A DNA stretch of 64,000 bases, taken from Thermohalobaculum sediminis (GTDB lineage Bacteria > Pseudomonadota > Alphaproteobacteria > Rhodobacterales > Rhodobacteraceae). Made by a program: the position numbers and the translations under genes. Each line of letters opens with the position of its first letter. Within the stretch, counting starts at the first letter, position 1. This document shows positions 60,172-64,000 of the stretch, in pieces. The notes below the pieces were generated by a model, which made no database searches, was not told where the DNA came from, and worked only from the letters and a program-made list of their open reading frames with translations. The stretch spans positions 62,001 to 126,000 of the forward strand of contig NZ_JAMFKN010000005.1 in assembly GCF_023487995.1 (NCBI RefSeq). The letters are read 5' to 3'.

Positions 60172-61599
60172 TCAAGTCGGCGCAGTTGCGCCGGGCCGCG
60201 CCGGCGCGGGCTCCGCACGGTGTGGCGAGGCGGCGGGGGGTCGGGCCTCGTGGCCGCCGGGGATAGCCGGATCGCGCCACAGCCGCCAGTAGCGCCCGGG
60301 ACGGCACACGCGGCGCACGATCTCGGCGGCGGCGGCGCGTTGTCCCTCGGGGTGGAACAGCGAGCCGCGAATCTGGATCCAGTCGGCGGCGGCGCGCGCC
60401 CAGGCGTCGAACAGCTCCGGGTCGGGCCGTTGCGGCTGGGTCCAGAAGCTGTCGAGCGGGCGTCGATGCGTGAGGCCCGGGATGTCGTAGACCGCGTCGC
60501 CCATCACCCGCACCGGGCAGCCCAGCGAGAGCGCGGTCACGCCGCTCGTGGAATTCGTGGTCACGACGCCATGGGCCACCCGCATCATCGCGGCGAAGTT
60601 GCCGCCCCGGATCGTCTCGACGCGTCGGGCCACGCCATGGGCGCGCGCGATCCTTGCACCCACCTTGCCCCAGTCGGTCAGTCCCGGGTCGAAAGGATGG
60701 ACTTTGAGGACCAGCCGCATGTCGCTCGGCGCATGGCGCGCGAAGGAGGCGATCACCTCGCCGAGCATCTCGGACTGGCTCGAATAATCGCTCGAGGCGC
60801 GGATCTGGTAGTCGGTTTCGAGCTGGAGCGCGACCAAGGTCACCTGATGGCGGCGGGCGAGGCAGTCGCGCTCGACCCGGCGGGCGTGGTGCCGTGTCGT
60901 CCGCGCTCGCCAGAGCCTCGGCAGCCATCCCATGTACTCGACGACCGGCCACACCGCCTTGTCGCTGACGTAGCGCGGGAAGGCGAAGCGGCCGAACACA
61001 TGGGCGAGGTTGAAGCTCACCTCGCAGGCCGCCTCGAGCGCGAAGGGGTGTCCGAAGGCGGGGGCAAGCTCGGGCGGCGCGGGGTTTGCCGAGCTCGCCT
61101 CGGCGGCGAGGCGGCGCAGCGTTTCGGGGTCGCGGCTGAAGCCCGAGTTGCGGCCCATCGCGAAGGGCTCGAGCGTGAGCCAGTCGGGCCGCAGGTAGCC
61201 GTTCTCGACCACCCAGACGCGCAGGTCCCGGCGCCGCCGGGCAAGCCGCTGCGCGGCGAGGTGATAGGGCTGGCGGTCGGCGAAATAGAGGATGTCGGTC
61301 ACGGCCTCGCGCGTCACCAGCTCGTCGAGCCAGCCCTCCCATCGCGCGAGGCTTCCGCGATAGTTCAGCGTCGTGCCGCCGCCGTGCCAGAACAGCCAAT
61401 CGCCGAGCGAGACATTGACGTGCAGGAGCCGCACGCCCGCGGCCGTGAAGCCCTGGCCGAGCACAGACCAGAAGCCCGAGGCCGGGCCCTGCAGCATCAG
61501 GACGGTCTGGCCCCGGTTCCGGCGCGGCCGGGCCTTGGGCGGCGCCGGTGGTTCGGGCATGATCGCGTCGCGCGATCTGAGGGGCTGCGGCAGGTTCAT
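60172..61599 (-). CDS. kpsS: Capsular polysaccharide (K-antigen) biosynthesis/export protein, KpsS/LipB type
   Basis: A 475-residue protein of the KpsS family, beta-Kdo glycosyltransferases that make the lipid-anchor Kdo linker of group 2 capsules. Seen: VLMLQGPASGFWSVLGQGF and VNVSLGDWLFWHGG near the start (family signature), and the C-terminal LVLKVHPFDPGL...NSTSGVTALSLG, the donor-binding region of this GT-B group. GGAG lies before the ATG (61599). It lies close to an SDR and an alpha-oxoamine synthase, as in rhizobial rkp-1 loci. Confidence 0.85.
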   Translation of the reverse strand: MNLPQPLRSRDAIMPEPPAPPKARPRRNRGQTVLMLQGPASGFWSVLGQGFTAAGVRLLHVNVSLGDWLFWHGGGTTLNYRGSLARWEGWLDELVTREAVTDILYFADRQPYHLAAQRLARRRRDLRVWVVENGYLRPDWLTLEPFAMGRNSGFSRDPETLRRLAAEASSANPAPPELAPAFGHPFALEAACEVSFNLAHVFGRFAFPRYVSDKAVWPVVEYMGWLPRLWRARTTRHHARRVERDCLARRHQVTLVALQLETDYQIRASSDYSSQSEMLGEVIASFARHAPSDMRLVLKVHPFDPGLTDWGKVGARIARAHGVARRVETIRGGNFAAMMRVAHGVVTTNSTSGVTALSLGCPVRVMGDAVYDIPGLTHRRPLDSFWTQPQRPDPELFDAWARAAADWIQIRGSLFHPEGQRAAAAEIVRRVCRPGRYWRLWRDPAIPGGHEARPPAASPHRAEPAPARPGATAPT

Positions 61600-61721
61600 C
61601 GGCGGTCTATGCTCCTGCCCGGACAGGGGTCGGAAGAGGTGGCAGGGATGACGGCACCCAAAGGATCGTGGTCATCGGGCGGGCGGCATCGCCGGCCCGC
61701 GTCGCGCGGCGGGGTCGGGCG

Positions 61722-62528
61722 GTGAGCGCGGCCGGCCGCAGCGTCGTGCTGACCGGCGCGTCGGGCGGCATCGGCCGGGCGCTGGCGGTCGAGCTTGCCG
61801 CGCCGGGGGTGGCGATGCTGCTGACCGGGCGCGATGCCGACCGGCTCGCATCCGCCGCCGAGGCCGCGCGCGCGCGTGGCGCCGAGGTCGAGGCGGCGGC
61901 GCTCGACGTGACCGACGCCGCGGCCCTTGCCGCTGCGCTGGCGGCCTTCGACGCGGCGCACCCGGTCGATCTGGTGATCGCCAATGCCGGGATCTCGTCG
62001 GGCCGCCCGCCGGGGATGGCGGCCGAGCCGCCGGGAGCGATGCGCCGGCTGGTCGAGATCAACCTGATGGGCGCGGTCCACACCGTCGAGCCGCTGATCC
62101 CGGCCATGGTCGCGCGCCGGTGCGGGCGGATCGCGCTGATGGGCTCGCTGGCCGGGCTGAGGCCGCTGCCGGACATGCCGGCATACTCGGCCACCAAGGC
62201 CGCGCTGCGGGCATGGGGGACAAGCCTGCGCGGGGCGCTCGCGCCGCACGGGGTGGGCGTCACCGTGATCTCGCCGGGCTTCGTGACGACGCCGATGGCA
62301 CAGCGCCACCGCGGCCTCAAGCCGTTCGAGATGGACGCCGCCCGGGCCGCGCGCATCATTGGCCGCGGCCTTGCGCGCGGGCGCCCGCTCATCACCTTCC
62401 CGCTGCCGCTGGCCGCGCTGATCTGGCTGGGCAACCGCCTGCCGCCCGCGCTCTCGGACCTCGCGATCCGGGCGTTCCGCGCCGAGATCGAGGCCGAGGG
62501 CGGCGCCGGGACGGGCGAGGGGCGCTGA
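61722..62528 (+). CDS. Short-chain dehydrogenase, RkpH-like
   Basis: A 268-residue SDR with an intact catalytic set: TGASGGIGRA, NAG (SNAGIS) and YSATK. A GTG at 61722 is the preferred start; an in-frame GTG at 61668 adds 18 low-complexity residues. It is convergent with the alpha-oxoamine synthase gene and divergent from kpsS. In Sinorhizobium, the SDR RkpH sits with RkpG (alpha-oxoamine synthase) and KpsS-like RkpJ; the same trio is seen here, so a role in modifying the lipid of the capsule anchor is likely. Confidence 0.8.
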   Translation: MSAAGRSVVLTGASGGIGRALAVELAAPGVAMLLTGRDADRLASAAEAARARGAEVEAAALDVTDAAALAAALAAFDAAHPVDLVIANAGISSGRPPGMAAEPPGAMRRLVEINLMGAVHTVEPLIPAMVARRCGRIALMGSLAGLRPLPDMPAYSATKAALRAWGTSLRGALAPHGVGVTVISPGFVTTPMAQRHRGLKPFEMDAARAARIIGRGLARGRPLITFPLPLAALIWLGNRLPPALSDLAIRAFRAEIEAEGGAGTGEGR

Positions 62529-62543
62529 CGGCGGACCATGCCC

Positions 62544-63884
62544 TCAGCCCCTCAGCGCCGCGAGGCGGGCATCCACCTCGGGGATCAGCCGCGCCAGCGT
62601 CGCCACGGCATGGTCGATCTGCGAAGGGACGTGCTCGGAGGTCACGAAGAAGCGCAGCCGGGCAAGCTTCTCGGGGACCGCGGGATAGATGATCGGCAGT
62701 GCGCTGATCCCCGCCTCGTGCAGCAGGTGCGACGCCAGCGCCGCCCGCATCGAATGGCCGAGGATCACGGGCGTCACCGCCGTGCCCTGCGCGTGGCCCG
62801 TGTCGAGCCCCGCGGCGCGCGCGGCAGCAAGGAAGTGCTGGCCGTTCGCCCGCAGCCGCGCGACGCGCTCTGGCTCGCGCAGCATGATCTCGAGCGCCTT
62901 CGCCGCCGCGGCGGCGAGCGGCGCCGCGAGGCCGACCGAATAGACGAAGCCCGGCGCGTTGAAGCGCAGGATGTCGATCAGCGCCTGGCTGCCAGCGATG
63001 TATCCCCCACAGGCGCCCAGGGTCTTGGACAGCGTGCCCATCCAGATCTCGACGCGCCGCGGGTCGATGCCCTGCGCCTCGGCGATGCCTCGCCCGGTCG
63101 GCCCCAGCACGCCGAGGCCATGCGCCTCGTCGACCATGAGCCAGGCGCCGTGGCGGTCCTTGATCTCTACGAGGCGCGCGAGGTCGGGGCTGTCGCCGTC
63201 CATCGAGTAGAGCCCCTCGACCGCAATCAGCACGTTGCGATGCTGGCCCCGGACCTGTCCCAGCCGCTCGTCGAGCCAGTCGTAGTCGTTGTGCGGGAAG
63301 ACGAGGCGGTGCGACCCCGACAGCTTCGCCCCCTCGCCGATCGAGTTGTGCGAAAGCTGGTCCATCAGCACCAGGTCCTCGCGGTCGACCAGGGTCGCGA
63401 GGGTCGTCACGTTGGTGGCGTGGCCCGAGACGAAGGCAAGCGCGCTCTCGGCGCCATGGACCGCGGCAAGGGCCGCTTCGAGCGCCCGGTGGCCGGGCCG
63501 CTCGCCACCCACCAGCCGGCTCGCGCAGGCCGAGATGCCCTGGGTCCGCATCGCCTCGGCGGCAGCGGCCACGACCTCGGGGTGGCCGTTGAGGCCGAGA
63601 TAGTTGTAGGACGCGAAATTGAGCCGTGGCGCGCCATCGATCGCGAGCTCCGGCTCGGGTGGCCCGTCATGCAGCCGGAAGAAGGGCGACGTCATGCCCA
63701 GCATGTCGGCAGCGGCGCGGTGCAACGTCATGGCCTGGTAGCGCGGGAGCGTCGAGAAGTCGAAGGCTGCCGCCGGGGCCGGCGCGTCCTTCGGCACGTC
63801 CGCGCTTGCCGCGCCCCGCTGGCCCGCCCGCCCGCGATGGGCTTCCCGCAGATGGCTGATGAGGGCTGCGCGGGCCTCGCTCAC
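62544..63884 (-). CDS. Alpha-oxoamine synthase-family aminotransferase (RkpG/AONS-like)
   Basis: A 446-residue PLP enzyme of the 8-amino-7-oxononanoate synthase / 2-amino-3-ketobutyrate CoA ligase family. The PLP lysine lies in GTLSKTLGACGG (near residue 280). The N-terminal 65 residues are an extension relative to AONS. RkpG-type members condense an acyl thioester with an amino acid during K-antigen lipid synthesis. GTG start (63884) follows GGGAGGG and overlaps the stop of the upstream gene (GTGA). No bioA, bioB or bioD is nearby, which argues against biotin synthesis. Confidence 0.85.
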   Translation of the reverse strand: MSEARAALISHLREAHRGRAGQRGAASADVPKDAPAPAAAFDFSTLPRYQAMTLHRAAADMLGMTSPFFRLHDGPPEPELAIDGAPRLNFASYNYLGLNGHPEVVAAAAEAMRTQGISACASRLVGGERPGHRALEAALAAVHGAESALAFVSGHATNVTTLATLVDREDLVLMDQLSHNSIGEGAKLSGSHRLVFPHNDYDWLDERLGQVRGQHRNVLIAVEGLYSMDGDSPDLARLVEIKDRHGAWLMVDEAHGLGVLGPTGRGIAEAQGIDPRRVEIWMGTLSKTLGACGGYIAGSQALIDILRFNAPGFVYSVGLAAPLAAAAAKALEIMLREPERVARLRANGQHFLAAARAAGLDTGHAQGTAVTPVILGHSMRAALASHLLHEAGISALPIIYPAVPEKLARLRFFVTSEHVPSQIDHAVATLARLIPEVDARLAALRG

Positions 63885-64000
63885 TGCACCCTCCCGATCC
63901 GCTTCGCCCGGGCGCGGAGCTCCTCGACCGTGTGCTCGCCCACCTCGGCGTCGCCATGCTGCGCCCGCAGGCGCTCGACGGTGGCGTCCGCGGCGTCCGC
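63881..64000 (-). CDS. C-terminal end of an upstream gene (partial)
   Basis: The last 39 codons of a minus-strand gene whose start lies beyond the window; the stop overlaps the GTG of the alpha-oxoamine synthase gene. The visible end (GEHTVEELRARAKRIGRVQ) resembles a short helical terminus and could come from an acyl carrier protein or synthase of the same locus, as in rkp-1 regions, but it is too short to name. Confidence 0.5.
   Translation of the reverse strand, partial: ADAADATVERLRAQHGDAEVGEHTVEELRARAKRIGRVQ

Follow-up and report, generated by a model that had tools for sequence, protein, structure and literature searches.

At the right edge of a 64-kb stretch of the Thermohalobaculum sediminis genome (the window; bases 62001-126000 of the 330,140-bp contig NZ_JAMFKN010000005.1), genes for a KpsS-type capsule enzyme, a short-chain dehydrogenase/reductase (SDR) and an alpha-oxoamine synthase (AOS) lie beside the end of a type I polyketide synthase (PKS) gene. 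This leads to the question which lipid such a capsule locus makes, and whether the capsule is anchored on it. The initial annotation described an rkp-1-like K-antigen module, which from its genes would produce a lipid-anchored capsule. This reading is supported, within limits set by the absence of RkpI from the genome and a KpsT that looks degenerate. The genes probably form a module of the rkp-1 type within a capsule locus with an ABC transporter (KpsSC/KpsMT/KpsE), and this module would make the capsule's own lipid, a sphingolipid-like anchor.

The three complete edge genes were confirmed at the positions in Table 1, and reading was continued past the edge. Genes were called with a home-made caller, plain open reading frames being used for one lower-GC stretch. 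The partial gene, first put down as possibly an acyl carrier or a synthase (rkpF or rkpA), proved to be the synthase, an rkpA-like PKS of 2538 residues with the domains KS (11-381), AT (542-844), DH (911-1197), ER (1822-2120), KR (2143-2321) and ACP (2425-2489). A stand-alone acyl carrier protein (ACP) of the rkpF kind was ruled out, the ACP being a domain of the PKS. The PKS frame is intact and the catalytic motifs of all these domains are present. No thioesterase is among the domains listed, and the SAM-binding pattern of a methyltransferase, seen in 1 of 86 PKSs examined, is missing from this one. The PKS stop and the AOS start share 4 bp (window 63881-63884). The same coupling is found in a set of 107 loci, this one and 106 fetched, which were found by their AOS and therefore tell its surroundings and not its frequency among capsules. 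Spacing was measurable in 98 of the 107; PKS and AOS lie within 60 bp in 81 of these and overlap by exactly 4 bp in 47. The two are fused in one frame in a proteobacterium (L070:9432-17267, 2611 residues; G, C and L numbers are our handles for genomes, contigs and loci). A second one-frame fusion lies on Planktothrix plasmid p3 (L209:5581-13179), where the annotated PKS gene spans the AOS match.

In Sinorhizobium meliloti (pSymB, CP090106.1; L206) one strand carries a PKS, an AOS, an SDR, an unannotated 512-residue open reading frame and a KpsS-type gene, with a KpsF gene beyond, and PKS and AOS again overlap by 4 bp. This order fits the published set of rkpA (a fusion of rkpA-F), rkpG, rkpH, rkpI and rkpJ (PMC7902896; here and below, papers are cited from the accessible parts of their text), and the S. 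meliloti genes were therefore taken as rkp-1. The letters come from the order PKS-AOS-SDR-I-KpsS together with the papers (PMC7902896, PMC4881576); CP090106.1 itself prints no rkp names. The proposed match of KpsS, SDR and AOS to the rkpJ, rkpH and rkpG trio holds at 40, 33 and 48% identity, the SDR value being weak as SDRs are common, and the PKSs are 38% identical in their best segment. The expected rearrangement is also seen, with KpsS and SDR divergent and SDR and AOS convergent. PKS, AOS, SDR, KpsS and the 4-bp overlap are thus shared, whereas RkpI is absent here, SDR and KpsS are divergent, and kpsT-, kpsE-, kpsM- and kpsC-like genes and a glycosyltransferase gene stand at the same locus, the S. 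meliloti export genes being in rkp-3 (PMC4881576). Judged by gene content and similarity, the present locus is a relative of rkp-1, another member of that kind.

A chemistry for such genes is known from Pseudomonas fluorescens MYb115, in which SgaA (PKS), SgaB (AOS) and SgaC (SDR), reported in 2025, produce C24-C28 sphinganines as well as lipids that by mass are probably phosphoglycerol-sphingolipids (PMC12134224). SgaB is a serine-specific serine palmitoyltransferase (SPT) in vitro, the role of SgaC is proposed, and 6,101 homologous clusters were found by the authors (PMC12134224). The iterative PKS, the AOS and the SDR are shared with the present locus, whereas SPT activity and product chemistry are known for Sga, whose lipids were described as free and host-protective with no capsule link discussed in the accessible text (PMC12134224). 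In the accessible main text of that paper the terms capsul, rkp, wcb and polysaccharide have zero mentions (PMC12134224).

By analogy with SgaABC, the iterative PKS would assemble a long saturated acyl chain bound to its ACP and, as it lacks a thioesterase, pass the chain on to the AOS. The AOS, proposed to be a PKS-fed SPT, would condense the chain and an amino acid, serine being the likeliest, into a 3-keto sphingoid base, which the SDR would reduce to a sphinganine-like amino alcohol. The dedicated KpsS lineage and KpsC would put the Kdo (3-deoxy-D-manno-octulosonic acid) linker on this sphingoid-base lipid, instead of or after phosphatidylglycerol, and the capsule would be built on the linker and then exported. 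A phosphoglycerol part would in many relatives come from RkpI, a phosphoglycerol transferase of the LtaS/GacH type. We infer both serine as the substrate at this locus and the capsule as the destination of the lipid. The logic of a highly reducing PKS with an AOS and an SDR is also that of fungal fumonisin, with Fum1 and Fum8 as the counterparts. Fumonisin is a fungal toxin and not a surface-glycan lipid, and is likened by logic, not by sequence; a parallel to FUM13 is drawn in PMC12134224.

Two plasmid-borne loci show these genes among capsule genes. On a Pseudomonas plasmid (L207) a PKS, an AOS, PhyH, KpsC, GNAT, an annotated lipoteichoic acid (LTA) synthase family protein, an SDR and KpsS stand together, along with a second KpsC-like gene, KpsF, kdsB and kdsA; SDR and AOS are separated by the LTA-synthase-like, GNAT, KpsC and PhyH genes. 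The AOS and SDR of this locus are 52 and 45% identical to those of the window. Its SDR, AOS and PKS locus tags (26415, 26440, 26445) have the same steps as those of MYb115 (RS19775, RS19800, RS19805), so that, by tag arithmetic alone, the characterised sga cluster is probably a capsule locus too. An RkpI-like phosphoglycerol transferase beside a sphinganine pathway would fit the phosphoglycerol-sphingolipids of MYb115. The PhyH gene beside the AOS (L207:16240-17283) belongs to the phytanoyl-CoA dioxygenase family and could hydroxylate the sphingoid base.

In Paraburkholderia dioscoreae (pII, L208) the order is KpsS-SDR-'LTA synthase'-PKS-LpxC-like-AOS-GNAT, on one strand and mostly overlapping or adjoining. 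Such Burkholderia-type loci (L208, L145 and others), which we take to resemble wcbQRST, share KpsS, SDR, PKS and AOS with the present one. There, on the other hand, the genes form one operon (L208) that includes the LTA-synthase-like gene, and the present locus has neither the LpxC-like deacetylase that separates PKS from AOS nor the GNAT gene that follows AOS. The LpxC-like gene in this place, usually with GNAT after AOS, was seen in L062, L089, L099, L102, L120, L126, L135, L139, L145, L157 and L208. The L102 copy scores 628 bits on the LpxC-like model PRK13187 (cut-off 423), and the deacetylase possibly processes the amine of the lipid.

KpsS joins Kdo to the lipid (PMC12220298), and would therefore be expected to form a lineage linked to a lipid synthase if it takes the product of that synthase as its substrate. 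A tree of 46 KpsS sequences, 18 from PKS-bearing (PKS+) and 28 from PKS-free (PKS-) genomes, required 2 changes of the PKS label compared with 14.5 after shuffling, and 0 of 500 shuffles gave a value as low. All 18 PKS+ sequences, plus three PKS- ones, are contained in one group supported at 96/85. The window KpsS falls inside it beside RkpJ of S. meliloti and well away from the 11 KpsS of its own family, and a 57-row tree agrees. An approximately unbiased test for one single PKS+ clade gave p=0.08, by which such a clade is neither shown nor rejected. KpsS is thus co-inherited with the PKS, and since the window KpsS groups with PKS+ sequences and not with its own family, the window's lineage seems to have acquired KpsS along with PKS-AOS.

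With a profile trained solely on KpsS of AOS-bearing loci, 11 untrained PKS+ KpsS scored 476-566 bits and 28 PKS- KpsS 274-490 bits. None of the four top-scoring PKS- genomes holds an RkpG-type AOS (best 281-322 bits vs at least 690 in true ones). The best NCBIfam match of the window KpsS is KpsS, at 174 bits below the 600-bit cut-off. As a membership test this equivalog score was rejected, because 0 of 10 further KpsS reached 600 bits: five PKS-free ones from other classes of the phylum scored 327-366, two PKS-free ones from the same class 280 and 289, one from the window's own family 243, and two PKS+ ones 232 and 248. No match to a solved structure was found for the window KpsS up to E=1. 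The set of KpsS, KpsC, KpsM, KpsT and KpsE-like proteins, with Kdo genes in the genome, is shared with the E. coli group 2/3 capsule, in which KpsS and KpsC act on phosphatidylglycerol, whereas the window KpsS is of another lineage. To our knowledge the E. coli capsule needs no PKS or AOS.

Of 196 genomes from the order, 3 have the AOS at E<=1e-100, and of 398 from the phylum, 23 have it at E<=1e-85, the window's genome being counted in both. A PKS adjoins it in 18 of the 22 other genomes (in one as the single frame of L070) and does not in G001, G375, G379 and G518. All 26 other sampled members of the window's family have PF05159 (KpsS/KpsC) proteins and lack the PKS-AOS module. The association was tested on the 371 genomes of the phylum sample outside that family. 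PF05159 is present in 14 of 18 genomes with PKS and AOS vs 39 of 353 others (p=6e-10, in a Fisher test that ignores relatedness), one of the 14, G501, having a weak match only (1.3e-17). Among the matches listed, 8 of the 14 genomes have PF05159 no more than 15 kb from the AOS; the remaining 6 have it on a different contig or outside those matches.

Unbiased clustering of neighbours in the 107 loci gave the AOS (104 loci), the PKS (89), the SDR (43), a PF00884 membrane protein (28) and KpsS (27) and, among export genes, Poly_export (22), KpsE (21), KpsT (20) and KpsM (19). By profile, KpsC, KpsS, KpsE, KpsM or Poly_export occurs within the stretch read in 47 of 91 PKS loci, and in 64 of 91 counting an RkpI-like gene. 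Removal of the near-copies L086, L115, L123 and L125 (AOS at least 97% identical) left 103 loci, 87 with a PKS, and the counts became 45 and 62 of 87. A protein of about 382 residues was also seen near the AOS in L056, L057, L071, L074, L075 and L093, with no Pfam match in L057, the one tested; in L071, L074 and L075 no PKS adjoins the AOS.

The PF00884 cluster of 28 loci contains S. meliloti RkpI, which scores 422 bits on its profile. Among solved proteins the profile has 8 matches, one of them uncharacterised, with phosphoglycerol-transferring ones on top (GacH 1.3e-34, LTA primase 1e-21, LtaS 1e-13). One RkpI-like member has about five N-terminal hydrophobic segments, and its T300 and G468-D469-H470 are conserved. 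NCBIfam gave no match for the RkpI-like proteins of L147, L107, S. meliloti and Pseudomonas and one weak LtaS match, for L067. By these profiles RkpI is kin to phosphoglycerol transferases.

The search beyond the window and for Kdo genes turned out as the initial annotation had anticipated. To the right of the PKS follow KpsT-like (an ATPase), KpsE-like (BexC/CtrB/KpsE family, 183 bits) and KpsM-like (a permease, 47 bits) genes and those for an 864-residue glycosyltransferase and a 681-residue KpsC-like protein, the KpsE- and KpsM-like scores both being under curated cut-offs. Apart from KpsS and the KpsC-like protein the genome has no PF05159 protein. On another contig kdsA (416 bits, cut-off 242) and kdsB (329 bits, cut-off 234) are present; their CMP-Kdo may serve lipopolysaccharide alone.

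Table 1. Genes at and beyond the right edge of the window (window numbering unless a contig or locus handle is given)
Product	Position	Strand	Basis or remark
KpsS/RkpJ-like, putative beta-Kdo transferase, 475 aa	60172..61599	-	Pfam Capsule_synth PF05159, E=3.1e-66, profile positions 2-308 of 310
RkpH/SgaC-like classical SDR, 268 aa, called start GTG; proposed 3-ketosphinganine reductase	61722..62528	+	PF00106, E=4.7e-43
RkpG/SgaB-like pyridoxal phosphate (PLP) AOS, 446 aa; proposed PKS-fed SPT	62544..63884	-	profile matches, conserved residues, identities
RkpA/SgaA-like type I PKS, C-terminal 39 codons	63881..64000	-	rest of gene beyond window, to contig position 133497
KpsT-like ATPase	C39:133963-134658 (L009:12964-13659)		Walker A kept, ABC signature and catalytic Glu lost

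Several findings weigh against a sphingolipid-like anchor made by this module, and some of them favour other explanations. LtaS-type active sites face the outside of the cytoplasmic membrane. Because KpsS acts inside, what RkpI makes is not necessarily the acceptor used by KpsS; the outward site suggests a later decoration, or a phosphoglycerol end of the capsule that is moved from diacylglycerol to sphinganine. The whole genome of T. sediminis has no match to the RkpI profile (A3), so the last step would differ or be missing here. A paper of 2005, by its title, reportedly describes a 'phospholipid anchor' on the K polysaccharide of S. meliloti 1021, which could be of either the glycerol or the sphingoid kind. 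The KpsS of three PKS-free genomes fall, as noted, in the supported PKS+ group, and a review gives phosphatidylglycerol as the KpsS substrate (PMC12220298).

The alternative that survives best is an ordinary rkp-1 module whose special lipid is an export or assembly factor only, the finished capsule sitting on conventional phosphatidylglycerol-Kdo. It would agree with a review that credits rkp-1 products with making and modifying a specific lipid carrier used in secretion (PMC4881576), and with cited titles, taken as titles alone, by which rkp-1 is required for poly-Kdo secretion and the anchor is a phospholipid. It is nevertheless unlikely, as the enzyme meeting the lipid, KpsS, belongs to a PKS-tied lineage and would not be expected to be changed by a pure export factor, and as KpsS is operonic with the SDR, an RkpI-like gene and the PKS in Paraburkholderia.

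A decaying or non-functional capsule locus gained by transfer is quite unlikely. Such a locus is suggested by the KpsT-like protein, which has DA in place of DE; a same-genus relative (L052), likewise without the signature motif and the catalytic Glu, has DG, and DE is kept in the other 19 aligned family members. Lacking the ABC signature and the catalytic glutamate, this KpsT looks broken, a further point against the proposal. When a replacement was sought elsewhere in the genome, the sole match to a normal KpsT at 1e-20 was a Wzt-like protein. In L052 the PKS lies in two overlapping frames (L052:1666-9346), from a sequencing error or a broken gene, and RkpI is absent from the present genome. 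On the other hand, the PKS of the window's own locus is intact with its motifs kept, the AOS shares 82% identity with that of the same-genus relative, and the Walker A motif of KpsT is kept. Wzt/Wzm-like ABC transporter genes were noted at C32:111637-113732, with a Poly_export protein some 12 kb away at C32:125933-127363 (L211); this stretch is a separate polysaccharide locus of lower G+C content (about 0.55 at its left part).

It is very unlikely that the genes make an SgaABC-like sphingolipid secondary metabolite and merely stand beside capsule genes with no functional link to the polysaccharide. The SgaAB lipids are described as free secondary metabolites in the accessible text (PMC12134224). 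In 27 of 91 PKS loci no capsule or RkpI-like gene was found in the stretch read, with its limited flank, and 4 of the 18 genomes with PKS and AOS (G207, G236, G359, G499) lack PF05159, which also speaks against an anchor. The strong genome-level association and proximity and the co-inheritance of KpsS argue otherwise, as does the equal sga tag spacing in the Pseudomonas plasmid capsule locus, a matter of tag arithmetic only.

The genome also holds a canonical sphingolipid cluster (C11:615420-620839; L024:5421-10840) with a fatty acyl-AMP ligase, a reductase-like gene, a nucleotidyltransferase-looking gene, an ACP and an SPT scoring 618 bits (cut-off 500). The edge genes were rejected as that cluster, which sits here. 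The canonical pathway (SPT, AcpR, acyl ligase) resembles the present one in AOS fold and presumed 3-keto sphingoid product and differs in using a stand-alone ACP, not a PKS. The organism may thus make two kinds of sphingoid base, and whole-cell lipid tests of the proposal would be confused. Likewise unfavourable is that 586 sequences of solved structures match the SDR, so that its substrate is not fixed by homology and its proposed 3-ketosphinganine reductase role cannot be told by sequence from that of generic SDRs.

In the AOS the residues H179, D252, H255, the PLP lysine K287 and R411 are invariant in 22 AOS including SPT, Kbl and HemA. It scores under every NCBIfam equivalog cut-off (bioF 347/426 bits; SPT models 282/500, 271/640 and 204/670). 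That it is the genome's 8-amino-7-oxononanoate synthase (BioF) in an accidental neighbourhood can practically be dismissed, since bioF, although its best-scoring model, stays below the cut-off, RkpG of S. meliloti scores alike (360 bits), no bioB exceeds its cut-off and the AOS start overlaps the PKS stop. The genome is rated 100% complete, and its best bioB match reaches 49.5 of 225 bits; bioA and bioD were not searched. The three other AOS genes are HemA, the canonical SPT and Kbl, each above its own cut-off, and the AOS would therefore not serve a biotin pathway, in line with the initial annotation.

The locus itself belongs to the known rkp-1 kind; what is new is the proposed mechanism, a testable one. 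So far the rkp-1 lipid has been named just a 'specific lipid carrier' in the accessible text (PMC4881576), and the link to Sga predicts a C24-C28 sphingoid base on the capsule. More tentatively, rhizobial rkp-1, Burkholderia-type, Pseudomonas sga and the present locus might represent a large unrecognised class of Gram-negative capsules anchored on a polyketide-made sphingolipid, sphinganine-phosphoglycerol or near to it, and not on a diacylglycerol phospholipid. RkpI might then make phosphoglycerol-sphinganine or, outside the membrane, shift phosphoglycerol-Kdo-capsule from diacylglycerol to sphinganine in an anchor exchange. The separate KpsS lineage would have co-evolved, and the free 'host-protective' sphingolipids of Pseudomonas would be anchor precursors. 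No link between capsules and sphingolipids was found in the literature searched, in which subscription papers, the first paper on rkpGHIJ among them, are mostly missing, so that its absence from print is not established. If the proposal is true, the phosphatidylglycerol rule for KpsSC capsules would be incomplete in many soil, marine and host-associated bacteria. Bacterial sphingolipids would gain a structural job not considered so far, and the Pseudomonas lipids a cellular role.

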